Below are positions 1,905 to 34,200 of a stretch of DNA of 64,000 nt, one piece after another (within the stretch, counting starts at the first letter, position 1; each line of letters starts with the position of its first letter). The notes beneath the pieces were generated by a model that saw nothing but the letters and a program-made list of their open reading frames with translations, had not been told where the DNA came from and did not search any database. A program made the position numbers and the translations under genes. This stretch comes from Apostichopus japonicus (lineage: Eukaryota > Echinodermata > Holothuroidea > Aspidochirotida > Stichopodidae), in the NCBI RefSeq assembly GCF_037975245.1, contig NC_092580.1, positions 5,866,501-5,930,500 of the forward strand, given 5' to 3'.

Positions 1905-1958
1905 TATGTGGATACACGAAGCTATGTGGATACATGAAGCTATGTGGATACATGAAAC
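1905..1958. repeat. 18-bp minisatellite, 3 copies
   Basis: The unit 'tatgtggatacacgaagc' occurs three times head to tail, with one C/T difference in the second copy and a diverged third copy. It is too short to be an array of any known functional class. Confidence 0.8.
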
Positions 1959-5499: not shown

Positions 5500-5505
5500 T
5501 TTATT
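5500..5505 (-). terminator. Candidate poly(A) signal (AATAAA) of the TASOR-like gene
   Basis: TTTATT on the plus strand reads AATAAA on the minus strand, about 445 bases after the stop at 5,950. It is the first canonical hexamer I found in that direction. The implied 3' UTR length is plausible, but no transcript evidence is available. Confidence 0.4.
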
Positions 5506-5949
5506 TTGAGAGCACAGAAAACTTTTCCTCCACATGTCCTCTTTAAATAGACTTCACTTGATGTATAGATTTGCTCAATACAGATGTTTAATAAGCTTCA
5601 GGGGATTATTCCACACTTTTCTAGGATATCAACACCTGCAAAAACCATAAGGATAACATCACTATACCAGTAATACATTTATATTCACTTGGAGGACCAG
5701 ACCAACTTTTTTAATTTCCCTCCATAGGCAGGTATCCACTTGTCAAAAAGATGCAATCCTTTAGGAAGGTTTGGAGAGAGCAATCGATAAACCAATGTTG
5801 AGCTTGGATTCTGATCTGAAGACAGAGCTTGTAAGAGATTTATCTTTTCCTTGGAATCTGACATTGTCCATAACTCTTGAAAAAATGATGATTGTCAGTA
5901 AAAATGACTTGGTATAATAAAACGGTTGTGAGTTAATGAGTGCAAGATG

Positions 5950-8900
5950 TTATAAACTGTGCCGATGATAAGATCTATGGTAAGATTTTTTGGTCTTACT
6001 GTCAGATCTGTGCTTAGGCACCTTGGATCTAGAAGAGGGGGAATGTCTTTGATCTTTGGCTTTGTGATGATAGTAAGATGGTTGGCCCACACTGACACCG
6101 TCTTCACTGGTAAGGTCACCCTGGAAACTCGTCCCGTCTTCTATGATGCTAGACTTTGACCTACCAGAATCTGACTTGGGAGGAGGACTTGGAGAGTGGT
6201 TGCTACTGGTCGAAACAGACCCTCTGGGTGAATCACCCTGCCGAGGAGACGACCTCTGAGAAATTGAACGTTGCTTCTCGTGGGTGAGTGGTCTAGCCAC
6301 TTCTTGCACCTGTGCAAAACACAAGATGGGATATTCATCAAGATATTAAAACTAGAAACTTATTACCAAGGTTTTATACTTTCAATAAATGACGGACCAG
6401 GGTGAAGAGGTGAGGTGACAATAGCCTATATTTCCAGTAGAATTCAAGGGCGACTATCGTTCATTACAGTTAAGTGAAGGGGAAGGGTCAAAACCACTGA
6501 GCTAGCACAGAAAAATTATTTATGATTGTAACACTTCCTTCCTTTGCCAACACTATCACATTCCATTTCAAGGCCTACTTTTGTAAGACACTTCTAATTG
6601 CTAGTATAAAACTTACCTTTCTTAAAGCACCATACTGTATCTGAGAGTTGCCAGGATTCTGTGTGTGAAGGGTGTTAAGAACTATTTCCTGGAGATGAAC
6701 CTCTTGCTGTGTTGGAGGACTTATTTCGTACTCGCTGTTCAAAAGTAAGAGAAAACCTGTCTATATTGACTAATATGAAAATGGCAGAAAGGAACTCACA
6801 TATCATAGAAGAAAATGCATCATTTAACAAAAAAACCTGCCTGTAGAAACTTGTTGATCTAAGGTGACCTTTAACTTCCACCAAAAAAAAAGAAAAGAGG
6901 GTTCATTTACTTAAAGTGGTGAAACTGCACAGCAATGTATTGCATGTATCCTTTATACATACCAAAATGACCAAGATGCTGTCAAAGTATCAAATTGTAA
7001 CACACTTAACTAGCTTTTAAAGTAAGCATGCTATAACTTTGGACTATTTCATTTTTATTACAATCTTTAGAGAAATAGAAATGTAAACTTGTGAGAAAAT
7101 GTCAAGATTGCAATGATTCCCATATGATTAATTCACATTAATGAAAATAATTCATTAGTTTCAAAAATAAAGCTACTAGAGTATATTATATGTAGGGTTA
7201 TAGATTTATAATAATAAATCTATGAGGGAAGATGTTTAGTGTCCGTACTAACCTCTTGTTTTAAATTTAGATTGTAAGTAGAAACTAATGATTAATTCAA
7301 ACATGCATAATGAGAAACAAATGGCTCAAATGAGTAACGCTTCACATTCTGTCCATTTCAAACTGTACAGTACTTACTACATGACACATTAAAAGCTATT
7401 TGTTTAGAAAATATAGAAAAAAAGTTAGAGCCAAAAGAAAGAAATTGATTAATTTGCTTGTGTTTAAATTTCAATCAGTTACCTCAGAATACCATGTCCT
7501 GCTCTTCATGTTCTAATAAACCATTCTCTGCTCTTTTAAAAGTTATTTGCATAATTTCCTAGTCACTTATTTTTCACAAATCTGTCTTCAAGATTGCTGT
7601 ATTCAATTATACAATTCAGTAACAATTCGCAACATTTTCAATTTCACAAACCCGGGTATTGTAGAATAATTGATCACTGAAGAGAGAAAATGTTTGCCTT
7701 TTTGAGAACTTTACTAATAAGCACAAAAGCATTATATGTGAGAGCAGAGAGTAGCTGGTTATTGATTGCAGAGTTTGAGAGTAAATTATATTGCTGTCAA
7801 ATTTTCTTGAACAGAAACTACCTTGCTAGTTAGTGGCATTAATGTCACAGGGACATGTTAGATCTTGAGAAAGTATGATTCAATTGGAAAGACAAAGTAC
7901 ACTAGCACACTGTCAATAACCACTCTAGACCACCCATACTCTTTCACAGTGAATGTAATTGTCCAAGGCTACTTTACATATAAGAATCAGGACTGGAGGT
8001 GCTTAGGCTCATTAACATCTTTTTGCACAAGTAGAAACACTTCAGAGAGCACCCTCAGAATACATGATGTGCTAATGAGTGATTATGTTGAAGTATACAA
8101 TTATGACATAAACTTAAACATCTGGGTTGTTTCATTCATTATGTCTGTAATCTACCAGACTGGTCTTGAGAATAGATAGTGTTGCTTGGTTATGTGCCCA
8201 AGTTCTATCTTTGGTGATTTTTCTTAAAAAGTAACAGTTCTAAACAAATTTCAATCTTGAGATAACTTGAAAGGTTAAACATAGAAGAAGCAATTTATGT
8301 AAGCATCAGTAGTAACACAATATATTCTGTTATATTTTTAAGTAAATTTAATGTTAGTTGCTATATACTGAGTGAAAACAGGAACATTGACAGCAGTAAA
8401 TGTAGCTGAATGATTGATACAAAACAACATAGAAAGCAACAGGTTCAGTTGGGATTGATCATGCAAGCTTGAGCATATAGAATTGTGCCTGCTAATGCAG
8501 ACTTTGGGAAGAGGAAGTTGCAAGCATTTGACTTTTGGCTGGTAACATTGTACCATTAGGCTACTCTCGGATGAGTAATTACTAGATGGTTAGCAACAAC
8601 CAAGTCCCAAAAGGAGTGTATTCATACAATATATTAAGATCTCATGTAGGAGTTAGTTTGAAGTATGTCCTGGTATGATAAGTATTGGTTCTCAACACAT
8701 AACCCCAAAATAGGATTGATACCAATTATATTTATTATTAACATTTCATTTCTTCAGGCATTAATTTTTATTCTCTTTCCAGATTTTCTGATCAGTATGC
8801 TGTTAACAATCTTTCCTTTTCTATTACAAACATGAAAATCTCAAGGTATCAACTACACAGAGCATTGTCCTAGGTAATTCACTATTTATAGATATGAGAA

Positions 8901-11900
8901 AATAGCCAAACTGTAAAAGGTAATGTCAGTTTTGAATTCATATAGAAACTTGTTTTCAAGCACAAAGAAAGTTTTGACTAGAAAAAGATTAGAAGCAATG
9001 ACCTTTGGAATAGAAGTGGTAGCTCATAATTGTGCTTGTTTGAATCCCAGTCTAGCCAAGAATTTCTATTCTCAAGAAAAACAAATTTCTATTCGCAAAA
9101 AAGATTTTGTTTTGTAGTTCTTAAGTCAGTTTTTTTCATTACGAACATGTTTTGGTTTGTTGGAAGGAACAGTAATTACAAAGCAGTATAAGTTCAGTTC
9201 AGTATAAGTTAATTAAACTTTAGATTAAGTAGGTTATTGAGCTGTCAGCAGCATTAAGCATTAACCGCAATACTGGGTTACACGCTTAAGGTAGTGTTAG
9301 TAAGATGAGATTAATCTAACAACACCAAGTCCCTACAACATACTTCTGCACTTCAGATGCGACCATCTTCCTAATAGTGGAAAGAGAGAAAAGAAAAGGG
9401 TACACAAGCTGTCATTGCATCTCTTCAGGAGGAGTGTTGCAGCTGTAACCTAGAAGCATCCAGGAATGACACCCATAGTCATGAACCTCAACTCATTCTA
9501 AACTTACCCCACATAACCTTAAGTCATAGATTGCTACATGCTCTGGTTTACAGAAACCTTGATTATACTCATGGTTCTACATGGCATTCCTCTTAAAAAT
9601 CAGTGAACCATTTAATGCATCTGCATGTTGCTGAAACATAAACCAAGATGGAAAAGGGCAGAACTTACTAGCACTTAAACAATGGTTTCTGTTTTCATTC
9701 AAGTAGTTCTTGCATGAACACATTTCTATATGAGTTCATCCAGTTCATTATTTAGGATCTAGGTAAATCAATTTCTGTTTGAATTGTTGGGACCACAGAA
9801 AATGTAACTCAATATTACCTGTTTCTACTTAACCTTCACCATATAATCCCATTTATCTACCAACTAATCACTTCAATAACAACCGATTCCTTGGCTCCAC
9901 CGATATGAGTGCAGTGATGACAAAACAAAGTACTATTAATATTAACTTGGTGCCAATTTATCCCTGTACTAAATTTTGAAGCTTAGACTCTTGCTAGAAA
10001 GAAGTTTGGTAAGTCTTATTAAATAAAGAGTCAAAATAACAGATTATGCCTAGTTTTTCCTTCTCATGGACAACTTTAAATGTATTTTGTAAAAATAAAG
10101 TTTATAAAGGGCAACACCATCTCCTCACAACAACAGAATACCTTGGTGCTGTCATTGCTATTTTCATCCTGTGCTCTACCAATATTAGGTTGCACTGGCA
10201 CATCATCTTTCTGCTTATTCCATGAAACTAGTTTCCACATAAACAGTCTCTAGAGATGACATTACTTGGCAGAACAGTTGTGAAGGTTTTTCATGCACAC
10301 ACAGAGTGATGTTGTGCAACAATTCACATATTTAACATACTCTTTGAAACAAGTCAACTGCAATACAAAACACTGCTTAACAACAACACAACAAAATTTC
10401 AAAACATGCACATATTATCAAACAAATGTAAACAAGCAACTGGCACCGTTTCCCTCACAACAAGTTGGCTACTATGCAATCAAACATGGGTATGGATCTC
10501 ACTTTCTTTTTGAAAGATTGTATCAAAGTTTCCCATAAATAACTTCACACCAGATATGAAATCTTTCCTAAGATTCAATTATAGCAGATTGTGTAACTTT
10601 ATGATGACTCAGAAGCAGAGACAGCATCAATTATAAAAGGGAGTCTAGCCTTAGTTACTTCTAATTTTGAAGCCAAAATTTTGAAGCCAAAACTCTTGCT
10701 AGGAAGAAAAAGATTGTTAATTGTGAACAATACCGACGATGCAGCATCTAACAGTTGCTTGAAGTGAAGTCCAGGAGGCTGAACATTCTTCAAAATCAGT
10801 AGCAATAATAGAACTGTGAATCAGTGATTCACAAAAGGGTTAGAAGCTAACCAACATGTGTGACCATTCACAGACAATGCTGTTGCACTAAGGTTGATCT
10901 CTTCAAACAATGGATAACTGCTACAAAGTTGAGAATTTGGAGCTGGTCGTAATAACTGATGCTATATATGTTAGCAATGCAATAAGGAAACACATGCAGT
11001 ATTAAGTATACATAGCTCAGTGGGTCAAAGGTCAAACTCACATTGCCAACCCTGATCCTGGGATAGGCTTTAGGGCTCCTCTGGTTTTGACAAACTTCCT
11101 ATAAAAATAGATTGAGGAAGGGATAGAACATGGAATTTCAACAGAAAACTTGTACAATGTATGATACGTAGCAGCCTTTCAGAGACATAAAAGTATGAGA
11201 TGCGATTTTGTAATATCTTGAAGAAGCTATCAAAATATTGATATAGGGAGATAACCACCAGCTAGTTACAAAACACCTTAGTATCAGCTTGTAAATAATG
11301 CAATGATGCCTGACAGCAATCTTTGTGGCCCACCTGGATTTATCTCCAAGTTGCATAACATGGACACAGCATTCACATTCTTGCATGATGCAAATAATTG
11401 TTATCATAATATAACACATTATATGTTTATCTGCAAAAACAAAGAATGTTCATATGCAATGTTGTTCTTTTTGAGAGCTCAAAAGCCAGTAAAAGGAATA
11501 ACCCATAACATCAATAGTTCTCATTAGGGAGGGACAGAATGACTCACCTTGTGATACCATGGAGAACTGATTTGACCAATGCATATAGATCCGGGGGCCC
11601 TCCTTGAGATTGGTTTGACACTGGAGGGCCTTTAATTGTGACAGTCAGCTGGTCGTTCAAGTCCCCTTTCACTATGACATTGCGGGACCACTGAGCTTCA
11701 CTACCAACTTGTGGATTCATAGCAGAAAGTTCATTGCACTTGTCCCAGGGTGGCGGTGACTCTGGGGTTTCCGGTGGGATTTCTTTGTGCACTAAACTCA
11801 GTGTTTCCCAAGGAGGGGGAGACTGAGGTGTAGCTGGCACACTGGAAGAGGTGGTATTCCTGGACACAGTTGACAATATAGAAGCCAGTTTGGTCATTGG

Positions 11901-14900
11901 ATCTCCAGCATCACCTTAATGTGGAAATAAAAACTCATCAATCTCAATCTACTGAAAATTACAATGCTACAAATTTAGTTATAAAATAAAGATAACAGAG
12001 GCCCTTCGAAGGATGTGTTACACAAATTTCATGACCAACATGCAATAATATGCTTGTAAACAAGTTGTATGCATGTACCAACAGCTGAGAGAAAAGGCAC
12101 CAGCAGCACAACCACCAGACAGGTCAGATTTGGCTAGGGGAGGATCGGAGGAGATAGAGGTGAAAAGAGGTAACAGCTGCAATCCTCAAGAAGATAATGT
12201 AGTAGTTTAGATAACATGTGAACCAGAATGCAAAAATGCATCAAAGATTTGCTGATGTAATCTTCATGATTCTGATATAATGTATAGTGAGGGTGTACAA
12301 CATACTTGATCTTAGTAATACAGTGAAAAGCATTGAGAAGGTGACACAAACTAACTATGACACAGGCTGTCCTGAAATGACCATCGACCTCAAGAACAGG
12401 CTTCTTGTACTAAATGTGATTCATCAACATACTACATGACATCTGTCCATGTTGAAATATTGTGTAAATTATGGTTTTCACAATTTGACCCCTGGTGAAC
12501 TCAAACTCCCATTGACCTCTGCCCACAACATTAGGCTTCTTGTACTCATATGGTACAATCACATAACAAATATGCCATCTACCCAACTTCCCTTGCGATA
12601 TTAGTGTAGAGAGACCAGGAGTAAATATTTAGGGTTTGTTGACTTCAAATGACCTTTGACCTCCACCAAAAACAATAGGCTCCTTAAATTTAATATGGTT
12701 CATCTACAACCAAATATAAGATCTGTCCAACGTTCCCTTCTTGCAATATCACAATTTGACCTGTTGTACCCAAAATGACCTTTGACTTCCACAAAAAAAC
12801 AATATTTTAGGCTTCTTGTACACAATATGGTTCTACTAAACACTAAATATGAAATTGGTCTAACCTTCTCTTCTTCAGATATCGTGTTTGCAAGCTGGGC
12901 ATCACAAACGCACACACACACTTCCACACATACGCCATCATGAATGCAAAGGTTATGATTATCATCGAAACCAAAAATGTGAAAATTCATTCTTGCACAA
13001 CTGTTGCCATCTAAAAGCAGTTATTGTATAAAACAAAGATTTAAGCCAAAACAATGATAACTAATATGAAACAACTAAACCTTTGCAGCTGATCAACTAT
13101 GTCACTACTGGAGAGGACATTTTAAACACTCACAGCAAACTTTGATATAACTTAAAAACAACAGATATAGGATACAGTAACCGTCATGTGTCCAACACCA
13201 CTGTTAATGTAACTGCAGCCCTAAATTTCTGAACAGTTGGAAAAACAATGTCTTTTCTTAAAATTTCTTACTTACACTTGGACAGATGATTTCGGTCTAA
13301 CAGTGAATAACTCCAATATCTTATGATACTTGCATATAGCATTCTCTCTTTGAAGCACCCACCTGTTCTAAGCCTCTTTGAAGAAGAGAGATACCCTCCT
13401 CCATCTTCAACCTGCCTCTTGTTATTGTTTTCCACATCTGAGGTCATAGATGTGTCATAGGAAGTGGATGGTCCTGGGTCTAGCCCTTCTGAGACCTCTG
13501 GATACTGTTGCATAAGTGAATGAGGAAAGGGAAAGCCAGATCCTGATGGACTTTGGCCCTGGACCCGACCTAATATTGATCTCAATGAATCTAATGTCAG
13601 ACCAGCTGGAGAGAGAGGATCAGGACCCACAGGGGACTCTCCTCCGGGGTCTTCAGGAGGGATGTCCTGCTGCTGGAGGTGAGGGCTTGAGAGAATGTTC
13701 TTTAGGTAATCAAAAATCTGGGCAGATTCTTGAATGGGCTTCCTGTCAAGATCCATTACCAGAGGTGGTTGAGCAGGGAATTCCCCATCGGGAGAATTAA
13801 AGTATGGTTCAGATTCATTGGCACTGACATAATCATAAGTAGAATGATCAGGGGTAGTAGGTTGGTGCTGGCTCAGCGAAGGATTGGGAGTGACCATTCC
13901 TATCGAGTCTTGTTCGGCGGAGAAAGTGGGCATCTGTACGGCTGGCGAGAGTGCTTTCAGTTTTTCTGCAACTCTCTGTCTCTGAAAGCTGACCTTCAAC
14001 TGCTCTGCCTGCTTGAGACCGGCTCGCTCCTGCAGTAACATTTCTAAGTTACCCTTCAGTTCAGATATCCTTGTCTGGTATCCCTTCACTGCCTCTGTAG
14101 TACCTGAGACGTCAGAGGATGACGCAGACATGGAAACAATCTTCTCCTTGACCTTCACCAGTTCTGTCAACTGATTGATCTTATGATTAATATCTGGTAA
14201 TGCAGAATTCTGAGAAAACATTCTGGTGGGCTTTGGAGGATAGGTAAACTTTTGTTCATCCTGTAACTCTGACGACCCACCCTGTTTATCACCCTGTTTG
14301 ACCCTTGCCCTATTGCTCTCATCAGATGTGTCCTTTGTTAGTGTCCTTGGGTCTTGTTGTGTCTGTGGTGGTGGCGGACTGTCTTCTTCAATTGGAGAGA
14401 AACTGCCTTCCACATGTTCCAGTCTACCTGAATGGAAGGGTACTTGTTCTACAGTGGGAACAATTTGAGGTGCCTCCACCACCTGAGGCAGATGATTTTG
14501 ACTAGGCTTCATGTCTTTCACTATGCTGTTGGTGGCATCCTTCAGAACTGTATCCGTGTTAATGTTCCTGTTGTTACCATCTTTTGAAACCTCACCCGGA
14601 GGAGGATCCTTGCTCTCACTGACAGAGTTTCGAATTGCACTTCTCAAGGGGGTCTTCTTTTTGACTTTTTCTCCCGAGTAGAAACTGGTCATATGTTGGA
14701 ATACCTTCCCAATATCTGCCTTACAATTAGCAGTCTTTGATTGACTTACGACCGGTAACTGAGGCTTTTCATCTTCTACTCTGGATGCAGCCTTTTTCAG
14801 TCCTATATCTAAAATTAAAAAGTAGAAGATCAATAAATATTAAGAATATCAATCAAGGATAATGTGAAAACTGGCAAAAGTATTGAAATAGACAAGAAAT

Positions 14901-17900
14901 TGGGTTAGAACAGCCCCCCAAACTCATACCTTAGGATAGCAAGTCCTAGCTATGATATGAGTTGTCACCCTCAACAAAGAGAATCTTCTTTTCAATCAGC
15001 CCTTTTCTATCTACTTCTTTACTCTTTAAAAATTTAAGAATTATTTTTGCAAAGAAATTCAATATTTGTTACTTTTAGTCCATTAGAACAGAATATCAAA
15101 ACTTGTATTCTCAACACAAAAATGAATAAAAGAGGTTTCAATGACTGATCTGTTAATCATAAAGAGAGTTCATGAAGTCAACTGCTAGACTAGAAATCTC
15201 AGAAAAGATGTTATAAATAATATACAGAGACATTATGAATGGTATAGTCATTTCACTGCTTAACTGTAATGGAAGCCATCTGGGGTAGGATTGTCTAATG
15301 AAAGTAGAAAACAGGCCTCAAATGTCATTTCTTAAGATTAGGCTTCAACCACTGAGCATCAGTGTGTCTAGTAAGAAATGCCACATTCAGTCTTCGATAT
15401 ATAACCAACTGTATCATTTTTTTGGCTCAATATGTAATGTCTTTGCACTGAAAGTACAGAAATATGGCAACTGAGAACTTCAACTTTACACAAACTTGAC
15501 AATTTTGAAACTAAATCTTTCTCTAATGTGTCACATCAGCAGCCACTGCCACATAGCTTTAATACATACAGCTCTAAAGACTGGCGTTAATATTTCCTAC
15601 CTGTCAAAATTCTGAAAGAACTTCTGTTTGATACAAACAATACGTGGAGCACACATGTTTTGACAGACTTAGTGACCCCTAATTCTTCAGTCAGAGTACA
15701 TGGTGGCAGTACAAACAACAATTTGTTGTCAATCTTCTTCTGCAAGGCCTGTTAAAAAAAAAAACATGCAGTGTGTATGGTCAGCTCTTTGACTTCATTT
15801 ATTGCCAATCCCAGGATTTATTTTCAAGCAGAGACATCTCAATTATCACAACAACAAAAAATAAGAATTATAACCTATTCATGACTACTTTCTGAAAGTT
15901 TTAGAAATGAAACACGTTGGAAATCTTGGGGACAATAAATTTGATCTTTAAATAAAGAGCATAACTAGTCCATGAACACTGACAGAAATAATGCTAGTAT
16001 TTGAGAAAATATTCAGATATTTGGAAGATGCTTTTAAGAAGGCCTTTAAATATCCACAGCAACAATAAATAGGGAAGGGTAAATTCAAACAAGTCTTTGT
16101 AGACAAAATTCATTTTAACAACAATCCAAAGTACATATCAACCTGATATATTTATCACAATTTTCACTCTTTTCCTGTAATAACCTTACCTGGAATGTGT
16201 ACTCAACTCCCTCTTCACTATCATTTAGTGTGTCATTCCACTAAACGTGGCAACGCAGTGTGCAAGATAAATGGAAAAAGAAGCAACACTTTTTTTAACT
16301 GCAATCTTTACATCCAAAACCTTAAAGGGAAGGGGTGGCCACATGAATCTCTATAAAAATTTATGAGATACAAATGAGATTTTACTGAATATCATAATTA
16401 TACCCTGTGGCAGAATCTGCATGCCATTGATTCCTTTTTGCATAAAATAACAAATTTGATCAACTAATTTCTTACCATGTCATTTTCCTTCAGGCATTTG
16501 AATAGTTCAAGAAATGCAGTTTTATCTCCAATCCTCCTCATCTGTGCATAGCTGAAGTAGCGTCCCTTTGCAGAAACTACAAATGAAAGAAAAAATCCAC
16601 AAATGCTACAGACATACATAAGATCAACTGTAACTCTTTCCTCTTTACAAATCAGGACTCTGACCATTCTACTCACTCCCTCCTAAACACAAATGCACAT
16701 ACTTAGGAATATACATGGCTAAACAGACAATGCACAGACTGGCAATATCATGAAGCCACTGGTGAGAATCTATCTAGTCCACTTTCTACGTCATTTCAAA
16801 ATTTCTGATAAAGAAAAAAAGTTTTAAACATTTAATAGTTATCATAGTTTATAGGTTTTTTGTGTTATTGAGTAAGTTTGAACATTGAAAGTATCAAAAT
16901 GAAAAATGAAAATATTGCCAGGGATTAACTTCCTTACCCTCTCTGTATCTTGAAAAATGACAGAGCTTTGGATGCTTGCTGATGTTGGACGGCATTATCT
17001 GTTTGACTTTACTGATCGGTAGGGCAGTGTTGAGATTCAGACGTCTAGGCCTGACAAAAAAAAAAAAAAAACCCAAGTTCACAAGTATAAAATTTACAGC
17101 TTAATGCATCAGTATTAATAAAACTTGTAATTAACAAATCAGAATGGAAAAAATATATATGGTTTGATTCCTCAATAAATTTTGGAATGTCTTTCACTTT
17201 CCTAAGTTGCACAAAAGTAACTGTCTACAAACAAACTTTGCTTTTATACAAATGTAGATAGCATTTTATGTACATATGTTTGAAATATCTGAAAGAGAGT
17301 GCAATTTATCTGGTTATAAGGAGGCAGTTTCTGATTTGAGGCCACAACTTTCACACATGAACATGAAATTCTAACCTCCCACTTATTCTTTCAACTAAGC
17401 AATATCAATAAGAAGTGAATTAATAATATTTTAAGCTCTGTCCAAGTGTCTGCTGCAAGTATCACCATGTATGAATGTACAAAGAGAAACTTGTTTGAAT
17501 TTTATTTTGAATTTTGAATTTGAATTTTGAATTTTTATTTTGAGTTTGAAGTTTATTTGACTAACTTAAAATTTCCCCCACAGAGTAAACTGTGTATATT
17601 CGGCTGTGTTAATAGTATACTCCCTATCGTACATGGAAGGTTCACAAACATTGATTTTCATGAAAGATTGTGTGAGTTATGTGACCAAAATTCTTTAGGA
17701 GACGAATTTTGTTACATTTTTGTTTGTCCTTACTTTTCAGCCGATAGGATTGAGTTCTTGAGACCATATTTTAGGAAAAGACCCAGCTCTATTAAAAAGA
17801 AGCATTTGTTTCAATAATAAAAGTGTCCTTGTAAATCTAAGTAAATTTTGTAGTAATATTCTAAAAACGTTTGTCTCTTAAGGAAGTTTCTTTCTCTTAA

Positions 17901-20900
17901 CAGTCTGTGGTGATACGTTCCATTTTTAGACTTTTCCAAAGTCCCCCCCCCCCCGGCCCCCTCTTTCTCCTCTCAAACTATTCAGCATAAATTGTTGGAA
18001 GAACGTGTCATTCTTTCCTCTTTCCTTTTTAATCCCAATGTTCTTAGGTTAATATGTTATTTGTCAATTTGTTGTTAATCTCTGGATTGTTATTGAAATG
18101 TACCGTGTAAATGTCTATTATACCTCACTGAGGAAATGTGGAGAAAAATAAACTAAACTAAACTAAACTACCCAATGATATTAATCCATGACAGACAAAA
18201 GAAACAACTGATCTAACCAAAGACAAACAAAGGCATCTAAGACTTTATAACATTACTTGGGTTTTTACTTCCTTTCCTGCATTATACTTAAGTTTTATCC
18301 ACACTGTAATGCCTTTCTAAGAAACTACTTAGTCTGGCATTATTAAACTAAATTGAGGGCCAAACTTACAAGAAACATATTTTCTTAGCTTTGTCACACA
18401 CATGTTGACAAATAATGTAAGAGAAAGTTTGAGTTAACGGAAAGTACAAAAGGGACAATAGTATCTGCAAACTGCATGTATAGAAATGCGTGTGTCACAT
18501 TTAAAAGCTGGACTTACAGGTCTGTTGGCAAGAATGGAAGTCTACTGGATACAAGGCAAGCACTACAATGCTCTTTGCCCCCATTGATAAGTTTACCCTT
18601 CCACAAGGTGATTGGCGGTGAATACACTGTTATGATAAAAGAGGAAAAGAGTGAAACATTTTAGAAACAAAGTTTAATTACGAACAATATCAATTATATA
18701 TTACCAATAATGCTCTATAAACACAGATCACAAACTTGCATTGCATTTATATTTATATAAATTACAGGTTAAGAGAAAATGACATTTGAAAATAACCTCA
18801 ACCCCTTCAAAATTTGCACAAAATGAACAAGTTTGTGACATCACAGAATCACTTCTTGTCAATACATTCAACCTCAGTGGACCAAATACCCCATAGAGAA
18901 ACTTATAGATAACTATTTGCCAATCGTATAGGTGTAGAAAGAAGACTTCAATACACACCAAAGATTTTTCCTTATTCCATTTCCACCTCCAATTCCTTTA
19001 CACTGTTTACAACTGGTTTAGTCTCAATTCCACTCTTAATGTCAAAAGTTGACTTATTCATAGATTAGGAGTAAATAACTAAAAAATAACTTAATAATGA
19101 TGAATGAGCCTCTCAATGGTATTGATTACTTACTGGCTTTTAGCATTGATAATGCTCAGTTAATAACCTAACAGCCTATTACTAGTCACAATACTATGTA
19201 GTTATTGACATAACATTTATGTAGGTAAACGGTATGACAAATTCTGTAATGGCTGGCAATATTTTTAGAAATAGGACCCAGCAATACCCTAATATACTTT
19301 GGGCTGTCTGGACAAAGTGAATCCCTGACATCTAAACCATGTTCATACTGTTTAAACTTTCAAAGGCTTGTAGTAAGTACTTTAATATCATTTCTCTCAA
19401 CCTGTAAATTTAATATGTATATATATACTTTGATGAAGTGCTGGTTTATATTTTTTGAGGTTATTTATCCTTAATATGAACCTCTGATCTATTCTGTTAA
19501 TAATATCATGAGAACATCAATGAGGTTCAAAGGAAATAAGAACTAAACATTGAGGGAAGACTGAAGCACCTCAAAGAGCAACGTGGACAATTTTAATTGA
19601 ATAATTCCCCACATTTTCCAGTAATTTTTTCACTTTGGGAAAATTTTCACCAGTCATGGTTTTTGTTTCTTGGCTAAGAACCAACATTTTAGTCACTTTT
19701 TTTCTGTTTGTCTCTAGGTTTCTTAGTTCCTTTAATTTGGTGACAAACCTGTGGTATATAGCGCAGGTTTCTTAGTTCCTTTAGTGATGTCTTCTTCTTT
19801 ACGAGTGACGTCCTTCTTGCTAGCTCTAAGATCATGAGAGAAGTAATAATAGTGATAATATAGCGCTTAATACAGCATTTCAAAGCTCTTAACAAAGTAG
19901 GAAAGAGACAAAGGAAACCAAGGAAAGAAAGAGACTAGGAATCAAACAGAAATGTTTTAAGTTGTCTCTTGAAAATACAGAGGGAGGGAGAGTCACAAAC
20001 ATGAAATGGGAGTTCGTTCCAAAGAGAAGGTGCAGCGACAGAAAGGCACGATCGCCATAACGAGTGCGTTGACCAGGAGTTAATTGCAAATGCATATGAT
20101 AGGAAGAGCGAAGCGTAACTGTAGTTGACCGACGCAAAAGGAGTAAGAAGTAGAGCAATTGGTTAAAAACATTACAACCAAAGTTTCAAATTATACAACC
20201 TACCTATACTGCCTAAAAGTTCCAAACATGTCACATTTGATTTCTGTATTGATCCATAACAATGTTAAGCCTTTAAAAGCTTTGGAAATCTTTCAATTGG
20301 ATGTCAAATCCATTTGAAAAAATGTTGAAACAGAAATTTGGCTGAATAGTCAGTCAACACAAGGACCTTTGACAGTAACATCTTTGCATTGTATATACCA
20401 CTCCAGATAATTAGTTCTACTCACTAGGAATGAGGCTACAAACTTTAATGACACAGTAAAGAATAAGACAATGAACTTTTTTTGCAAGCTTTACAATCAG
20501 CACAGCACAAAAAGAAGCAATAAAGGCAATATTTCATGTTTCTGCAACAGCAGGTTTCTCATACTTACACATCAAAGGCACCACCAAGTGAAGTTGATTC
20601 TTTCTTCCTCTCTGTGTATTTAAAGTAGACAAGAGCAAAAGGACAGACCTGCTGTGGCCTTTTGGCCATTTCCAAATCTCCAAATTGGTAGCAATATATC
20701 TAAGAATCAAAAAACAACAAATATCTTGTTATCTATATTTAATGGTTTTATTTACAAATACTGGACACATCAAGTAGTGAGAGCTTAGTTCTACATAACC
20801 TTTGTAAGGCTGAGAATATTGATTCAGATGCATTCTTCATAATATTTGTGATGTTAACCATTTAAATATTGAAGAGGCAACTGTCTTTCTCAAGAATAAT

Positions 20901-23900
20901 GTGACATTGCAATAATTTCCTGTCCTAAAGGCAAATCTCATGGTAGCCATGGACTGACTTACAGCACATTTTGTAAGCAATTTTGGCTGCTAATTGGAGG
21001 CAATGTTGGCCATTCGCTATAATCATGGTTATGATGTTACTATATTGACCAGAGAGCAAGGGTGTGCTATTATTACTTTAATCCCCAGGCCCGGTAAAAA
21101 TTTAAACTTAGTTAGGAACTACCACTCTTTATTTTTATTAAACACTGACAACAAAGTATGTTCCAAAGTCCTCGCCAACAGAATTAAGCATACTCTCCAC
21201 TCTATTATTAGCTCAAATCCAACTGGTTTTTATCAAAAATCAGTTAATTGGTAGAAAACATTTGTTTTGTACTAGATTTGAAAAGACTATTGATTTTTGT
21301 TCTAGACATGCAGTCTTCTAATTCCAGTAGATTTTGAAAGTGCACAGCAATGAAACAACAGGTTGGATAGGACTAGCACAGGTATGATATCGCGGCGCCA
21401 TATAAGTGGCATAACCCATTGCTTAATGTAAGCAATTTATGCAAGTATACTTCAACAAATGCTGTATGAAACTTTTCAATCACACAAACCACATATTCAT
21501 TAGTAGTTTGTTCATATAGGGTATTGCACTGTCAGGGTGGAATGGCTGTAGAGTTACACACTCGCAAGTTACGAGACTTTTTCATAGATCACTCAAAAAA
21601 AAAAAGGGGAAAAACATTGCATGTTTTGTTTCTAAAAGTAATTTTAGCATGTAAGAGGTAAATATAAATATGCAGCCTTGACATATAAATCAGTTCACAG
21701 GTTATTTAGTCTTATCCATACACCAGACTGAAGGCCTGCACAGCCTGTATATGTAGTAACATTAGGCTTATGTATGCTATTATAGTATAGGTCGAGTTAG
21801 GTTTCAGGCTGATTGTCTAATGAAAAAGGGGCCAACCAAAATTAGCAAATTGTAACCCGGAAGCAAATGTTTAGACCTGGGTGAAACAGTACACAAATGA
21901 TATCAATGCTGCATGGAAAGTGTTTCTTGTTGTGTACTTGCATAATTATGGGAGAGCTTTTCTTTTTCAGTGTAAAATGGAGTGTAATAATATTTGTACT
22001 CAGAACCATTTCATTACTGATGTTTGCCTTGCCTGGTCTCATCTCTTGTTTAGAAAAAAGATCAACAATTTTAAGAATAAAATTATTTGGAATAGTTATT
22101 TCATTAAAACCTGACTAATATGACTGTGTTTTACAAGCCTTTGAATCAGAAGGGCATCATGTATGTTAACGATGATCTAGATGCCATTAACTGTCCTTAA
22201 CAGATCAATGCTTTTAATCATCAATATCTATAACTATCCTTTTATCCGTCTTTACTGCCTAATTGACATGATGAAACAATAACTTATTTGTCTTGGGAAT
22301 GTTAAATTATCTGTAATTTCATTTTGAATTGGTCGTCAAAAGAGACTTCTTTTTTAGGTACGAACTACTTTTAAAGCACCCATATAACTTTTTTATCTTC
22401 CACCTACAATATTATCTTTTCTTTAAAAAAAAAATGACAGAAGAGGCTTTAACTTGCAACTGATGTTTGCACAAGTTAAAATTTCTCTAATGTATATAGT
22501 AGAAGTACTATATAAGTTATGAGCAATTCCAAATCAGCATTAAGTTCTTGATTGTACTTCTTCAACGACTGCATTTCATTCAGTTCTTTCTTGTTATCTA
22601 AGTTGAATCATTTTTTCCTTTCTTCTTGCAAATTTAAAAAGACTTTTTTTAGATGCACAAATACATGCAAAGATGATTTGAATAAAGTATTGTGTGCTCA
22701 ACAATTAGAAAATATAAATTACATAATAAGACCAAAGGTCTGGGAGTATTTTTGGAGTACCATCATGTTAAGATCATCATTTAACACTCTGTACGTAATT
22801 TCACTTTTTACGTTCCTCCCCTACCCCCGACCACATTCATGGCAAAGAAAAGCTTTATCACCAAATATTAAGAGGATATTCTCATATGAAAATATTGAAA
22901 GTTGGGATTACCTTAAAAGTGAAGTTTACAACATTGCTAAATCTTTGACAATGGTAAAGAACAACATAACTTGTTGTCTTTCCTGATTCATACCTTGATT
23001 GCTGAGGATGATTTCTTTGTTTTCATTTTGAGGTCGGGAGGGGGGGGGGGGGGTGGGTGAGGAGAGCAGAGGTTTACCCTAATGACCTTGGTAGATTTAA
23101 GTCTACAGTTTATATTCACTGTGGTACTGCTCAGCACTTTACCTGATTAGAGACAAACGTCTGCACTCTGGAAGATGTCAAATCCACTACGATGTTCTTA
23201 GCAACATGTGAATCAAACTTTGGAGTTGGTTCCATGGCTTGTTTGTGGTGAGTTAATGGTACTGCTTTAACTTTACCCTGAGGAATCAAAAAAAAAATAT
23301 CCATGAATATTGAAGGTATGAGAGGTGAAATAGATGGAACCTTATCTCTTCATAGTTAAGAAACTTCTTCAAGGGTAGAGCATATACTATATTTATACTC
23401 TACTTTCACATTCCATAACTCTCTGTATTCGCTACATTTGTTGTATATATGTTTGAAAAAACAAATGAAATAAACGAAATAAACAAAAATATGTAACTCT
23501 TCAGATGACAACAGAATTACACCATGCTATTGCCTTCACATGGAAGCATTATAAGCAAAATAAATGTCAGAAAAAATGGTCGTTTGGAATGATGCATTCC
23601 TGATCACATAATTGCTGAATTTTCACTTTATATCCCACAAAAAATGGATAAAAATGCTGCATAAAAATTCCCATCTGATGAATAGTATTAGTATATAATG
23701 TCACGAACGGTGATGTGCCGATGGTGCAAGACCAGCCTTCGCTCCTACAACTTTTCTCTATCGGGTGCTGGAACATCCGTACACTTCAGACCCCACTTGC
23801 TGCTGAACATCTGGAACTGTCTCTGTCTAACTACAGATATGATATCATCGGTCTGAGCGAAACACACAACATCGGGAAACAAGAGGATCTCGGAGGTCGA

Positions 23901-26900
23901 CTGATCATGTCTGGGGGCCAGATCAAACTGGAGTAGGCATATTGATGTCTCCACGAGCCTACAGAGCTATGTGTAATTGCTGGCAGCTCTCTGACCGCCT
24001 GATGGCAGCTAGATACCGTTTGATGCAGGGCAGTCTGCTTTTCATCTCTGTCTATGCACCTACTGCAAATTCAACCAACGATGTGAGGGAAGCTTTCTAC
24101 GGAGAACTCGATGACTTCATTCATCTGCATCGAAAACGGACAGACATCCTGGCAGTGGCCGGCGACTGGAATGCCAAGATTGGATCAAGCGAAAATGGTG
24201 AAAGCATCATAGGACCATACGGCCATGGAACCAGGAACGAAGCTGGAGCTAGGCTAATTGACTTTGCTGCAAGCCATAACATCACGCCGGCTAACACATG
24301 GTTCCCTGGCCGCCGCGGCCACAAAATTACCTGGAACAGTCCTGACGGCCGCACCAAAAATGCTATCGACCACGTTTTTGTCGATAGGACTAAACGCAAA
24401 CACCTCACTCACTGCAGGTCTTTTAGCTGCAAGTTTGAGACTGACCACAGACTGGTACTGTGCAACATCAAACTGAAGTTCTCTTCGCCTGCTCATCCCA
24501 GACGTAGACATTCTGTAAACATCCACAGGCTGACCGACGCAGCAGTAGCTCAAAAATTCTGCAACAGTGTGAAAGAAGCTATAGCTAACACTGTCGACCC
24601 ACCTCTAGACAGCATAGCTGCCATCATCCATGATCGAGCGACAGACACATGTGGTACTCAGAGAGCTTGTGTTAACAAACCATATCTTCGGCCTGATACC
24701 ATCGAGCTGATCAGAAGAAAGAATGCTGCCAGGAACACCACTGAGCAGAAACATCTCCGAAATCTGGTGAAGCACAAGTGCGAGAAAGACATGGTAACGT
24801 GGGTCCTGGAACAAGTTTCCACCATTGAGGCTGCCTACCATAACAATGACACAGCCACGCTATTCAGAACAACGAAACTGCTGACTGGCAAGACCAATGC
24901 TCCAAATGTGAACATTAAGGATGCAAACGGCACCCCCCTGGAGAGTGTTACCGAAGAGGTCAGTCGCTGGCACGAATACGCAACCATCCTTTTCCAGTCA
25001 GACCTGCAGCGTGGTGGTCTACAATATGCAACCTCATGTGTTTCAGATGATGCTCTCCCAACACTGGCAGAGGTTGAGAAAGCCATCAAGGTCCTCAAGA
25101 ACAACAAAGCTGCTGGCCCTGACGACGTTCTGGCTGATTGCATCAAGACTGCTGCAACTGATACCACCATTCTCAGCACCATCCACAAGGCTGTGCAGTG
25201 TATCTGGTCTACAGGCATCTGGCCTTCAACGATGACATCTTCCACTTACATTGCCCTCCATAAGAAGAACGACAGAGGGGTTTGTGAAAACTATCGCACA
25301 TTGGCTCTCATAAGTCATGCCAGCAAAGTGGTGCTTAACATCATGCAGTCACGTCTTCAGACTAATCTCGACGATGTAAGTGAGGTGCAGTTCGGCTTCC
25401 GCTCCGGGAAGTCAACCACAGATGCTATCTTCGCTCTTAAGACTATCACATCTGCCTACTACAGAGCCCACACCCCACTCCATCTCATTTTCGTGGATTA
25501 CAAGAAAGCTTTTGACAGTGTGAATCATGCCCTCCTAATGGAGAAGCTGGAACAGATGGGCGTGGACAGAGATGTCATTAGACTCACAGAGAGACTTTAT
25601 CACGATGCTGGCGGCGTCTTACAATGGAAAAATGAGACTACAGATGCTTTCAATACGCCTGTCGGTTGTAGACAGGGCTGCCCACTTTCTCCAATCCTCT
25701 TCTCTCTCTACACTGAATGCCTTATGAGGGAATGGCATGCAAGGACCGCTGGTTTGCCTGGTGCTACCATAGGAGACCGCACAGTGAAGGAACTGAGATA
25801 CGCCGATGATCTTGTCCTGTTTGCGCTATCCGCTGCGGAAGCAGAAACGGCTCTCAACATCTTAGCGGACGTTTCCAAACCCTATCAGCTTGTGATACAC
25901 CCGGGAAAAACGGCTCACCTTGTCATCAAGACGGACCCGAACTCTACCGATACCATCCACCTGGGGACCTCCATTATCCCCAACGTTAACTCTTTCATGT
26001 ACCTCGGCTCCACCATCACCTACAACACTGATGACACTCCAGAAATCAGCAAGCGGATCGCCATAGCCAAGACTACACTCCGCGAGTGCAAGTACCTCCG
26101 AAGCCCACACCTCTCCGTTGCGACTAAACTTCTGGTCATCAGAGCCCTAGTAATGTCTAGGTTGACCTATGGCTCTACTACATGGTCGATTAAGAATTCG
26201 GATGCAGCCAAACTGGATGCTTTTGGTCTTACCGTCTGGAGATGGCTGCTAGGTGTCAATTGGAGCGACCACGTTACCAACGAGTCACTTATGCGTATGA
26301 TAGATGGTAGATGGCTATTCACCTATGACACTATTGTGCAGAGAAAAATGGACTGGTTCAGCCACATCGCCCGTCAACAGGGTCTCCAGTGGGACCTCTT
26401 GTCAGGTGCCGTTCTGGGCACAGTGAGTAGTCGTGGGCGGCCTCGGATGACCTGGTATGATAACATCAGAGCCTCAACCGGTCTAACCATGGAGGAAGCA
26501 AAACAGCAGGCTCTTTCCCGGATTCATCTGCGGATACGTGGTCACCATCCAGCTCCACTTCGCCGGTCATCTCGCATCGCTTTGAGACAGCGCCCACGGA
26601 CTCTTCAGAGTCTTTGACGATTTTCTATCTATATAATGTCTATGAGTATCTACTGTAGGTTGATTTACATACAAGTGTGACATGTATACTGGTTTACCAA
26701 TTCCAGATATATACACAACCTTTACTCGTATGTGACTTTACAGTTGTATGTAACATTAAAATGGAATTAATATGTTATTAATATGTAAAAAGCTATCTGG
26801 CTTCTGGTAATATATGACTATATATCATTTATATATGACACTATATCAACATAACAATTGTCCTTACTGCCCTAAGTCATTAAAAATGGACTAATGAAAT

Positions 26901-29874
26901 ATAAACAAGTTTACTTACTAAAACTGTCATAAATCTCACCTTAAGAACTTTGAAGACCAGTAATATATGTTCTTTACCAGTTCCCAGGCTGGTAGCACTT
27001 AGAATGTCTGAGAATCTGTTTAAGTACACACCTGAAATGAGAAAACATGTCATGTTTACTATTGATAGGACACTGCAGTGACTGCACCATTACTACACGA
27101 TGACATCTCCAACAACATGCCACAACGTTATGTGAACTTCCTGTGAACGTTTCATTACTCCACAATTACTGTTTTAGTTACATGGATAACAATGCATATA
27201 TACCAAGACTAGTGCAAGACCAAGTTAAAATGAAAAGTGTAAAACTTAGCTGAGAAAAATTGCAACATGTCCATTGAGCCAATTTTATCTGGAGGTTTCT
27301 CACTGTCTGCATTTACATTTCTCCATTAACTGATGCAGGATTACCAAGGATTCTAGATGATGTAATAACTTAGGTCATCTCTTTGTACATGGTTCTTTGT
27401 CTATTGGATACAAAGTATCTTTAAAGTATTTACTTGTCAAAGGTTTGACAAAGATATCAAAGGATAAATTAAACCTATACTAAACTCTATCAACATGTGA
27501 AACTACAAAATATAAGCTTTCCATTTTTCACTGGTTGAATATTGAGTAACTTAATCATCAACCCAGAGCTCCCTTGGTGCATTTTGTTGGCTGCAATTGT
27601 TCCAGTATTTTTACCTCTGATGGCTTCTTATCACTAATACACAACCACCCAATAGATAGTTTTGGAAGCCAATGTAGGGCACCCATACTGCAAATGATAT
27701 TATTTTCAAGCAAGTTACATTAAACTTTCCTAATTTCAGACACAGAATTATTATGAAAACATCGACCTGTTATATAATAGACTAGGAATCACAAGCAAAC
27801 AGACCATTGATACCGTAGCTGTACTATATTTCCAAGATAACACTCTCACCCATATCACCATGTCCAAGCCGATGTTCTCTGGATTGACCTGTCCATCTCA
27901 CATGCAACCCATCTTGACATATCAGTTTTGCCTGAGAAAAATGGTAACACACATTTTGCAAGTAAAAGGGAGAGGAATGCAAAATGAAACTGACCCATAG
28001 GTTCCTATGAAAACAAGTCAAGCAACCTTAACATAGTTAGCAAGTACGCATGCAAGGATGTTAGTTACAACAACAAGTTACAACAACAGGTCATAATGTA
28101 CTTGCACTATTTCACCAATCAAAGATGATAACAAACTACATAAAGTATTTTATAATTGGCAGATCTCAATTAAAGCAAATATACCCCTTTTCTGGAATAC
28201 TTAAAATAAACTCACATTTATTGAGATCCTGCTATGAGAAATTGATGTAGCCTGTGACTGGTTAATAATACTACAAGTAATGGATTGTACTTTCATTTCA
28301 CTTGCACTGACTTCTCAGGATTATATAAAACTTTCTATTTTAGATAATAATGCAGATACTCTCCAACCCCCCCCCCCCTAATTCCACACAACTCTAACCA
28401 TCTAACTTACATCTATTCTGTTCTTTCACTTTTCCTCTAGAGATGAACTGTAGTGTTTTATTTGTTAAGTATTTGACTGTTCCCATCACTACTCAAGCCT
28501 TTTACTTACAATGTTCATATTATCCACCAACAGAAACGCATACTGCTCAGCAACCTCCCTATCAGACCTTCCATCTTCTTTCATTTCCTTCCTCCGTTCT
28601 TGAAACTGATAAGGCAATAAAAAACACCAGTATTCCTCAGCACATAAAATAATTTTCAAAGTAATTTATCACAAAATGATGGAAGATAGGAGATGGAAAG
28701 TGAGATCTGATTGCTTCCTTGGAGACACAATAACTTGCTTCATGGAAGTTTACCAGCAGTAAATTTAAAAAAAAAAAAAAATTATACAATAGTTTAACAA
28801 CTAAGATCATGTCACAAAGTGCTTTTGGATCAAAAGAACATGTATACAAAGATGGCCCTCCAACAACTGTCTTTTTGCTTCAACTAAAGTAATAATTTTT
28901 ACATAAAGACTGCACAAAAATAAATGTGAAGTAAACCACTCTGTCATTTATTAATCATGGGCTGTTTGTTCCAATGTCAACCGTTCTCACCTCTGTATTA
29001 AGTTTGTCATTATGGACAAGGAATGCTTTCTCATACTCAAAGGAAGCCCTGGATGTGGGATCTCTGTACTGTTGGACAACAGCAGGAAGCAAATACTTTT
29101 GGAAGCTGTTTGAGTCCAATGAAACCTCTTCTAGGAGTTCTACAGAAAATTAGAATAATGGAAAGTACAAAGCATTAAAGAAAACAAATGTGCTAGCATA
29201 TGAGATGTTAACACCAGAGTACAAAATATCATTCACTATCAGAGCATCTTTAATGTTAAATAAAACATTAAGAAACAATGACACCTAGTACAATGGAAAA
29301 GCATTAACCACTTACGTAAATACAAATTACCAAACATGGAATCTAATGAATTGGTTTATGTGTTCTTTTTCTAATCTTGCTCTAATTTTTCATTTCCATC
29401 AAGCACAGTATAATGTGATCATAGGACAGCTTGTACATAAAGAGCAACAATCTTAAAAAGAAAACCTTTTATCATAACTTTCAGACTTTTGGTTTGTCCC
29501 TAGGGAGATGATGGTATACTCTTTTCCACTTTGAACCATCAGATCCTCTAATCACCTGCAAGTGATAACTCACCTTTTTCTTTAGCTTTCCTTGGTATAA
29601 CAAATGCCCTCATGTCTTTCCTCCTTGGGCCATGTTCTTTTGATACTTTTGGTTTCTCTTTAGGAGATGGTGGTGGTAATCCTTTCAATCTCATCCTTGG
29701 ACCATCGAACTTGCCCCTTGCACTCCTAGCAGGGGCACTATTCCTCCTTTGAGGGGTAGCCGATGATGCATTTTGGCTTGTCTTGTTCTTTAACTTTCTC
29801 TCTTCTGTTGTTTTCTTGATAGGTGTAGACTTTTTCTTTGATGTGGTGTCAGAAAACTTCACTTTTTCACTCAT
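5950..29874 (-). CDS. TASOR: TASOR-like protein (HUSH complex scaffold), 16 coding exons
   Basis: Exons: 29574-29874, 28991-29139, 28510-28605, 27850-27931, 26940-27031, 23143-23277, 20569-20699, 18518-18626, 16938-17050, 16476-16576, 16190-16240, 15601-15748, 13363-14808, 11548-11914, 6617-6734, 5950-6309, giving about 1,265 aa. Every junction keeps phase with GT-AG sites except exon 7/8. Exons 2-7 encode the DUF3715 (TASOR pseudo-PARP) domain; visible landmarks are QYAFLLVD, GVYLNRFSDIL, PKFDSHVAKN and KRPQQVCPFALVYF. Exons 8-12, starting YSPPITLWKGKL, match the following SPOC-like region. Exon 13 is long and mostly disordered, with a coiled-coil stretch and a KRLRT nuclear-localisation-like end; the C-terminus is Ser/Arg-rich. 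In vertebrates TASOR holds MPP8 and periphilin to lay down H3K9me3 over LINEs and intronless transgenes. This protein is shorter than human TASOR (about 1,670 aa). I chose the ATG opening MSEKVKF; an in-frame upstream ATG (29,928) is possible. TASOR2 or another DUF3715 member is the main alternative. Confidence 0.85.
6735..11547 (-). other. Large intron 14 of the TASOR-like gene
   Basis: This 4.8-kb stretch lies between TASOR exons 14 and 15, whose phases match (2 then 1 base). I see no further exon or recognisable transposon. A 15-base word 'aattttgaagccaaa' occurs twice in tandem near 10,660-10,690. Near 11,027 there is a GGTCAAAGGTCA nuclear-receptor-like half-site pair. Confidence 0.45.
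12378..12870. repeat. Degenerate tandem array (about 4 x 126-138 bp) with DR1-like sites
   Basis: Four diverged copies begin near 12,378, 12,512, 12,650 and 12,776. Each carries a TGACC(T)TTGACCT-like block followed by 'aggcttcttgtac', 'atggttcatctac' and 'caatttgacc' in the same order. The third copy (12,650-12,662) is a perfect TGACCTTTGACCT, the inverse of the DR1 nuclear-receptor site AGGTCAAAGGTCA. The array lies in TASOR intron 13. Confidence 0.7.
17527..18170 (+). mobile_element. LINE 3'-end remnant with (ACTAA)n tail
   Basis: A short frame at 17,527-17,817 ends in a C-rich motif of the form ERLCELCDQ...DEFCYIFVCPYF. This resembles the C-terminal zinc-knuckle-like tail (CxxC...H/C...CP) seen after the reverse transcriptase of several LINE clades. 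About 350 bases further on, the sequence ends in repeated 'aaactaaactaaacta', as expected of a LINE 3' tail. It sits antisense in TASOR intron 8. The clade is not determined. Confidence 0.6.
19690..20160. repeat. Probable dispersed repeat with an internal direct repeat
   Basis: The word 'aggtttcttagttccttta' occurs at about 19,716 and again about 50 bases later. The rest, including 'gttcgttccaaagagaaggtgcagcgacag' in two parts, has a composition unlike the flanking intron and resembles dispersed repeats of marine invertebrates. This is recollection only, with no copy inside this window. It lies in TASOR intron 7. Confidence 0.35.
20990..22120 (+). mobile_element. Decayed L1/Tx1-type LINE fragment
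   Basis: The frame at 20,994-21,254 reads through the reverse-transcriptase motif block IITLIPRPGK...NYHSLFLLNTDNKVCSKVLANRIK, the equivalent of the IPKPGKD...NYRPISLLN..YKI..K.LANR block of L1/Tx1 RTs. A later piece near 21,881-22,114 ends LFRKKINNFKNKIIWNSYF, like the post-RT region of Tx1-type elements. Stops and frame changes separate the pieces. It is antisense in TASOR intron 6. Confidence 0.65.
23715..23936 (+). pseudogene. 5' endonuclease segment of the RTE-like LINE (frameshifted)
   Basis: This frame carries the start of an apurinic/apyrimidinic-type endonuclease: GCWNIRTLQTP (the usual ..WN(V/I)R.. strand) and IIGLSETH with the catalytic Glu. The reading frame is lost by one base at or near the five-G run at 23,913-23,917. 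The continuation, VGILMSPRAYRAM, is then read in the frame of the downstream RT ORF. It is otherwise undamaged. Confidence 0.75.
23942..26617 (+). CDS. LINE endonuclease/reverse transcriptase ORF (RTE-like), 891 codons open
   Basis: In order the product shows endonuclease motifs VYAPT, AGDWNAKIGSS (catalytic Asp/Asn), TWNSPDGRTKNAIDHVFV and TDHRLV. It then shows reverse-transcriptase motifs NYRTLALISHASK, QFGFRSGKSTTDAIF, DYKKAFDSVNH, GCRQGCPLSPILF and the catalytic YADDLVLF. A C-terminal segment (LTYGSTTWSIK...WRWLLGV..., GRPRMTW) is typical of RTE/BovB-type proteins. The first codon in this frame is a TTG, not a natural start; the true start lies upstream at about 23,715-23,721 in another frame (see the endonuclease segment). 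The catalytic residues are present, so apart from that frameshift the enzyme looks intact. It probably copies LINE RNA by target-primed reverse transcription. Confidence 0.85.
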   Translation: MMSPRAYRAMCNCWQLSDRLMAARYRLMQGSLLFISVYAPTANSTNDVREAFYGELDDFIHLHRKRTDILAVAGDWNAKIGSSENGESIIGPYGHGTRNEAGARLIDFAASHNITPANTWFPGRRGHKITWNSPDGRTKNAIDHVFVDRTKRKHLTHCRSFSCKFETDHRLVLCNIKLKFSSPAHPRRRHSVNIHRLTDAAVAQKFCNSVKEAIANTVDPPLDSIAAIIHDRATDTCGTQRACVNKPYLRPDTIELIRRKNAARNTTEQKHLRNLVKHKCEKDMVTWVLEQVSTIEAAYHNNDTATLFRTTKLLTGKTNAPNVNIKDANGTPLESVTEEVSRWHEYATILFQSDLQRGGLQYATSCVSDDALPTLAEVEKAIKVLKNNKAAGPDDVLADCIKTAATDTTILSTIHKAVQCIWSTGIWPSTMTSSTYIALHKKNDRGVCENYRTLALISHASKVVLNIMQSRLQTNLDDVSEVQFGFRSGKSTTDAIFALKTITSAYYRAHTPLHLIFVDYKKAFDSVNHALLMEKLEQMGVDRDVIRLTERLYHDAGGVLQWKNETTDAFNTPVGCRQGCPLSPILFSLYTECLMREWHARTAGLPGATIGDRTVKELRYADDLVLFALSAAEAETALNILADVSKPYQLVIHPGKTAHLVIKTDPNSTDTIHLGTSIIPNVNSFMYLGSTITYNTDDTPEISKRIAIAKTTLRECKYLRSPHLSVATKLLVIRALVMSRLTYGSTTWSIKNSDAAKLDAFGLTVWRWLLGVNWSDHVTNESLMRMIDGRWLFTYDTIVQRKMDWFSHIARQQGLQWDLLSGAVLGTVSSRGRPRMTWYDNIRASTGLTMEEAKQQALSRIHLRIRGHHPAPLRRSSRIALRQRPRTLQSL

Positions 29875-33985: not shown

Positions 33986-34200
33986 ATAGGTGTCAATGGA
34001 AATTTTCTGTCTTGGATCGAGAATTGGCTTGGTAATAGGAAACAGGGTGGTAATTAAAGGCTGTGCATCTTCAAGGCAAGACATTACTAGTGGGGTTCTG
34101 TTTTGGGTCCCTTGTTGTTTGTTGCCTATATAAATGACATTGACGGAGATATTTTGCGTACAACTAAGAAGTTTGCCGATGACCCAAATTGTATTCTGAG
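33986..34200 (+). mobile_element. Inverted CR1-type LINE reverse-transcriptase fragment
   Basis: The plus strand reads NGNFLSWIENWLGNRKQ, then SVLGPLLFVAYINDI and KFADD, the CR1-type RT core, with two stops. It ends at the 10-mer GTATTCTGAG (34,191-34,200). The minus-strand LINE piece on the other side of repeat copy 1 starts with the inverse of that 10-mer (33,476-33,485) and continues the same protein immediately after the catalytic Asp pair. The two were therefore probably contiguous before a transposon insertion and a local inversion. Confidence 0.7.

Follow-up and report, generated by a model that had tools for sequence, protein, structure and literature searches.

TASOR (FAM208A) is a subunit of the HUSH complex, and the human protein of 1,670 residues carries an extended beta8-beta9 loop which among the human PARPs is described as unique to TASOR (PMC7532188). 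TASOR-like proteins, defined as having DUF3715 followed by SPOC-DomI, are reported from across metazoa; the split between TASOR and TASORB is placed as likely early in vertebrates, and TEX15 is given as vertebrate-specific (PMC10578480). In the published tree SPOC-DomI is marked for some DUF3715 sequences but not for others, and since the definition requires this domain not every invertebrate DUF3715 gene is TASOR-like (PMC10578480). As to the transposable elements found within genes, LINEs and LTR elements in mammalian introns are reported to lie antisense to the gene more often than in sense, as a general pattern (PMC3088655).

We analyzed a stretch of 64,000 nucleotides from Apostichopus japonicus, here called the window. 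On its minus strand we find a gene which runs from an ATG at 29,874 to a stop codon at 5,950 and thus spans 23,925 bp. Our reading is that this is very probably a TASOR-like gene and that the LINEs in its longer introns, of several kinds and probably not all of one age, are ordinary insertions. The exons were assembled manually, guided by open frames and splice sites, which gave 16 exons and one candidate exon of 51 nt (Table 1). The predicted protein has about 1,284 residues; 1,267 of them were used in the searches, with the candidate exon excluded. All introns have GT and AG ends, several of these sites with weak context or score, and of the whole model a strict automatic screen for splice sites returned just exon 9 and the exon 12 donor. 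Exons 8 to 16 are open throughout to the single final stop. All joins are in phase except the one between exons 7 and 8. Here, at 20,569/18,626 on the minus strand, two bases are left over at the end of exon 7 where exon 8 calls for one, if GT-AG sites are used. The donor of exon 7 has a score of 0.5, and no small exon with an acceptor score of at least 1.0 and a donor score of at least 3.0 was found between the two exons. The phase break may be a sequencing error, a missed exon or a real lesion. The intron that follows exon 12 contains, at 12,647-12,883, a sequence of about 110 bp in two copies with 74% identity to each other.

Table 1. Features of the TASOR-like gene and of the LINE pieces in its introns (positions in the window)
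Feature	Position	Strand	Basis
Exon 1, ATG 29,874	29574..29874	-	open frame, donor gtgagt
Exon 2, where the TASOR 6tl1 match begins	28991..29139	-	hand-built, PDB match
Exon 3, DUF3715	28510..28605	-	hand-built, Pfam and PDB match
Exon 4, DUF3715	27850..27931	-	hand-built, PDB match
Exon 5, DUF3715	26940..27031	-	hand-built, PDB match
Right copy of the target-site duplication (11-bp direct repeat)	26630..26640
EN-RT LINE, 2,927 bp, intron 5, antisense to the gene	23703..26629	+	RVT_1, direct repeats
Left copy of the target-site duplication (11-bp direct repeat)	23692..23702
Exon 6, DUF3715	23143..23277	-	hand-built, PDB match
L1-type RT fragment, intron 6, antisense	20994..21251	+	human L1 ORF2p match
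Exon 7, where the pseudo-PARP domain ends, with the extended beta8-beta9 loop; out of phase with exon 8	20569..20699	-
LINE-like 3' end, intron 7 (20,568-18,627), sense to the gene	19840..20162	-	LINE-like motifs
Exon 8	18518..18626	-	hand-built
LINE-like 3' end, intron 8, antisense	17587..18170	+	LINE-like motifs
Exon 9	16938..17050	-	hand-built and strict splice screen
Exon 10	16476..16576	-	hand-built
Candidate exon of 51 nt, phase 0 at both ends	16190..16240	-	absent from searched protein
Exon 11	15601..15748	-	hand-built
Exon 12, largest, 1,446 nt	13363..14808	-	hand-built; donor also in strict screen
Exon 13	11548..11914	-	hand-built
Exon 14	11042..11098	-	hand-built
Exon 15	6617..6734	-	hand-built
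Exon 16, stop codon at end	5950..6309	-	hand-built

In the predicted protein DUF3715 (PF12509) is matched with E = 1.2e-27 and 97.2 bits against a cut-off of 28.5, over 150 of 150 profile positions, and it is the sole Pfam family found at E<=1. The best match in the PDB is the pseudo-PARP domain of human TASOR (6tl1, E = 1.9e-46) with 81 of 192 aligned residues identical; the one other match is a designed repeat protein. The initial annotation had proposed an invertebrate TASOR, and its placement of the gene in the DUF3715 family holds, TASOR being the only solved relative with a real match. We converted the TASOR residue numbers from the construct described in PMC7532188. On this numbering the pairwise alignment shows the same residues at the two degenerate NAD-binding positions, L184 and Y217, and it runs through the beta8-beta9 loop (303-316, 14 residues) with no gap, the loop being of equal length in the two proteins. 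Two tyrosines are exchanged for phenylalanine, that is, the plug residue Y295 and Y305, the latter a conservative change at a position which is needed in human TASOR.

The LINE in intron 5, already described in the initial annotation, is real. A frame of 924 residues (23,843-26,614) contains RVT_1 with E = 8.4e-35 in Pfam, and Exo_endo_phos_2 is seen at 26.3 bits, slightly below its cut-off of 27.4. The EN start at 23,736-23,900 lies in another frame than the RT, and since it is out of frame with the rest the element is broken at this point. Direct repeats of 11 bp bound the element exactly at both ends. The flanks searched for such repeats were picked around the claimed ends of the LINE, and one in 60 shuffles of these two flanks equals 11. 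The element is thus a near-complete retrotransposed insertion between target-site duplications. Its CpG observed/expected ratio is 0.67 (whole window 0.37), which fits a recent insertion; composition could also account for this value. The 924-residue frame has no close relatives in the viral contigs that were searched. Its best PDB matches are L1 ORF2p and R2, which do not settle the clade. RTE was the name given by the initial annotation; the C-terminal motifs would agree with it, and we use it here as an assumption.

A second antisense piece lies in intron 6. It has 86 open residues, of which 59 (21,066-21,242) match human L1 ORF2p with a best E of 1.1e-6, and its CpG observed/expected ratio is 0.37. 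Judged from this match the piece is identified as a decayed L1-type fragment. An L1/Tx1 remnant had earlier been drawn from 20,990 to 22,120; the L1-type RT is there, but the extension to 22,120 finds no support.

The pieces in introns 7 and 8 are LINE-like 3' ends. In the antisense piece of intron 8 a C-terminus with a cysteine motif (17,587-17,814) precedes a tail near position 18,150 in which TAAAC is repeated, and the CpG observed/expected ratio of the piece is 0.54. By its motifs it is a putative 3' end of a LINE. Thus the third LINE piece of the initial annotation (17,527-18,170) is plausible on the plus strand from 17,587 onwards, but Pfam gives only an unrelated match (E = 0.17) and the viral scan, in a collection with few animal sequences, no relatives. 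The three pieces named there do occupy separate introns, namely 5, 6 and 8. The piece in intron 7 is oriented in the sense of the gene. It consists of a C-terminus spread over two frames, which is followed by a short-repeat tail, GCGCTATAT...TATTATTAC. Again by its motifs, this C-terminus is presumed to be like that of CR1/L2-type LINEs, and that the piece is a LINE appears quite probable to us. The CpG observed/expected ratio of this short piece is 0.92. Scans of viral and bacterial-genome collections, which hold few animal sequences, gave no usable relative of this piece, and an L2-type tail pattern did not occur in the viral scan. The one match that came up in the scans with the two 3' ends, a Mycobacterium stretch, was rejected as spurious, its open reading frames being unlike those of a LINE. 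The motif letters do not occur among the papers listed by a literature search.

Altogether we count four LINE pieces in introns 5, 6, 7 and 8, three of the four antisense and one probably sense. A fourth, sense-oriented piece had probably been overlooked earlier, and the statement that every LINE lies opposite to the gene is probably wrong because of the LINE-like 3' end at 20,162-19,840. At even odds, at least three of four pieces are antisense with a probability of 0.31; this rises to 0.56 if 65% of such insertions are antisense, a share which we assumed for illustration. Should the piece in intron 7 not be a LINE, three of three would be antisense, with probabilities of 0.125 and 0.275, respectively. 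As these values are unremarkable for three of four as well as for three of three pieces, the orientation does not need an explanation. The sample is too small for any claim of an orientation bias. Pfam scans of the unspliced frames of the gene region, on both strands and in three frames each, revealed no other transposon domains. Such scans are weak for small pieces: they passed over the DUF3715 exons of the gene itself and also the L1 fragment, the latter even when it was scanned alone. Since small pieces can be missed in this way, the four LINE pieces are no full census.

It is possible, if rather doubtful, that selection against sense LINEs shaped the pattern. Sense copies would then have been lost via their termination or splice signals and antisense copies would mostly have been left in place. 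This would agree with the antisense excess published for mammalian LINEs and LTR elements (PMC3088655), and the one near-complete element is indeed antisense. Four insertions are, however, insufficient for such a conclusion (P = 0.31), and the probable sense piece is still present in intron 7. With a sample of this size the LINE pattern carries no message.

The second alternative concerns the gene. It might not be a working TASOR but a decayed copy, or else it might encode a different kind of DUF3715 protein. SPOC is not matched in the protein by Pfam at E<=1, its expected place being exons 8 to 11, and neither PIN_TASOR (PF24630) nor TASOR_alpha-beta (PF23314) is matched at E<=1. The latter two were also absent at E<=5 from the unspliced minus-strand frames of positions 1-9,990, in a scan which is insensitive to exon-sized pieces. 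The DomII and PIN domains of vertebrate-type TASOR were thus not found, and the predicted protein apparently lacks the C-terminal PIN region. Exons 8 to 16 gave a single match in the PDB, to an unrelated chain with E = 0.83. The missing Pfam matches, the out-of-phase join of exons 7 and 8 in spite of GT-AG sites, and a published tree in which SPOC-DomI is marked in only a part of the DUF3715 sequences (PMC10578480) would all be compatible with a gene that is not a working TASOR. Nevertheless, the other joins are in phase, the exons downstream of the break are open to a single stop, GT and AG are found at the intron ends throughout, and the single phase break would be explained if a small exon was missed or the sequence contains an error. 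Moreover, the closest solved relative is TASOR, and the loop that is unique to TASOR is retained at equal length. TEX15 is reported as vertebrate-specific (PMC10578480), and the TEX15 domain (PF15326) has no match in the protein at E<=1. We therefore consider a gene which is not a working TASOR to be very unlikely.

Finally, self-targeting of the silencer's own gene had been raised by the initial annotation. According to this idea a HUSH-like complex would read the LINEs in the gene of its own scaffold and so tune its level. A near-complete LINE is present in the gene, and in human cells the TASOR-regulated H3K9me3 within genes is reported to lie mostly over intronic L1s (PMC7532188). Thus intronic L1s are HUSH targets there, and the location in an intron alone is no protection for an L1. 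In reporters, by contrast, HUSH repression is found to track the A content of the sense strand, the reverse complement of ORF2 is fully HUSH-resistant and introns protect from HUSH (PMC8770142). Human ORF2 has 41% A and 20% T (PMC8770142), whereas the host transcript would read the intron-5 LINE as 22.9% A and 27.0% T and the sense strand of the LINE itself has 27.0% A. The reporter rules ask for a long and A-rich unspliced transcript of the sense strand (PMC8770142), and what the promoter of the gene would deliver is an intronic stretch of 22.9% A. Since the LINE is antisense, low in A and intronic, it should by these rules be a poor target from the host transcript, and the published reporter rules thus argue against the recognition of an antisense LINE via the transcript of its host gene (PMC8770142). 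By the same rules the LINE could become a target only if it were transcribed from its own strand. The argument from base composition is weakened, however, because an L1 without its A-bias is reported to lose the recognition by SAFB but to keep the repression by HUSH; SAFB binds to sense and not to antisense intronic L1 (PMC10901741). Literature searches on autoregulation and on intronic LINEs, host genes and orientation returned titles and abstract openings in which self-regulation of TASOR does not appear, and the passages of PMC10915761 that were consulted contain nothing about the TASOR gene itself. As the sequence bears no sign of a feedback and the reporter rules run contrary to it (PMC8770142), we regard self-targeting as highly improbable, and still less credible is the full chain in which the intron-5 LINE is transcribed from its own strand, is recognised by a HUSH-like complex, brings H3K9me3 onto the gene and lets LINE activity set the dose of the silencer. 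If true, this would be a retrotransposon-sensing feedback inside the silencer's own gene.

Several other features of the window were recorded. Synteny with human TASOR, whose neighbour we take to be CCDC66, finds no support, the neighbours in the window being RIB43A and BBS2. The RIB43A gene (about 36,750-42,540, minus strand), which shares the strand of the TASOR-like gene and lies upstream of it, has several exons, the best frame with E = 1.1e-94. The BBS2 gene (about 44,290-52,960, plus strand) is matched in Pfam from BBS2_N to BBS2_CtH and in the PDB by BBS2 with E = 3.2e-53. An inverted pair of sequences at 40,938-41,508 and 43,580-44,143, one copy of which is within the span of RIB43A, is 84% identical over 578 aligned positions. 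The pair is perhaps a mobile-element family; in Pfam the only match is a weak one to FANCL_C, in one of the copies (E = 0.011). Diverged local repeats, with pairs 69-84% identical, are found at 33,486-34,728. Outside the gene, at the end of the window, there is also a second EN-RT LINE at about 61.9-64.0 kb (61,924-63,969, plus strand; RVT_1 with E = 1.7e-23), which in a tblastn comparison with the intron-5 element gives E = 1.3e-13 and is 22% identical.

We suggest the following view of the locus. The protein would act like TASOR, as the scaffold of an RNA-directed silencing complex that sets H3K9me3. As a member of a HUSH complex it would be expected to assemble with MPP8 and periphilin. The LINEs in its gene would be passengers, presumably tolerated since they are intronic and spliced out. 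Their orientation would be due to chance, to which the mild selection that usually acts against sense LINEs may or may not have contributed. The gene adds one more annotated TASOR-like gene to a family already known across metazoa.

How does this locus compare with the described systems? Most of the LINE pieces are antisense, as is the case for the antisense-biased intronic LINEs of mammals (PMC3088655), but here there are only four pieces and one of them is probably sense. The element in intron 5 resembles an RTE-type LINE, a kind with a single ORF for EN and RT, in that both domains are combined in one element with a short 3' end and a target-site duplication. With TASOR2/TASORB the gene product has DUF3715 in common, as it has with TEX15 (PMC10578480), the Pfam model of the latter being unmatched here. 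From TASOR itself the protein differs in having no match to PIN_TASOR or TASOR_alpha-beta, in its phenylalanine in place of Y305 and in its length of about 1,284 residues against the 1,670 of the human protein. With TASOR it shares the DUF3715 pseudo-PARP domain, the residues L184 and Y217 and the beta8-beta9 loop of 14 residues.
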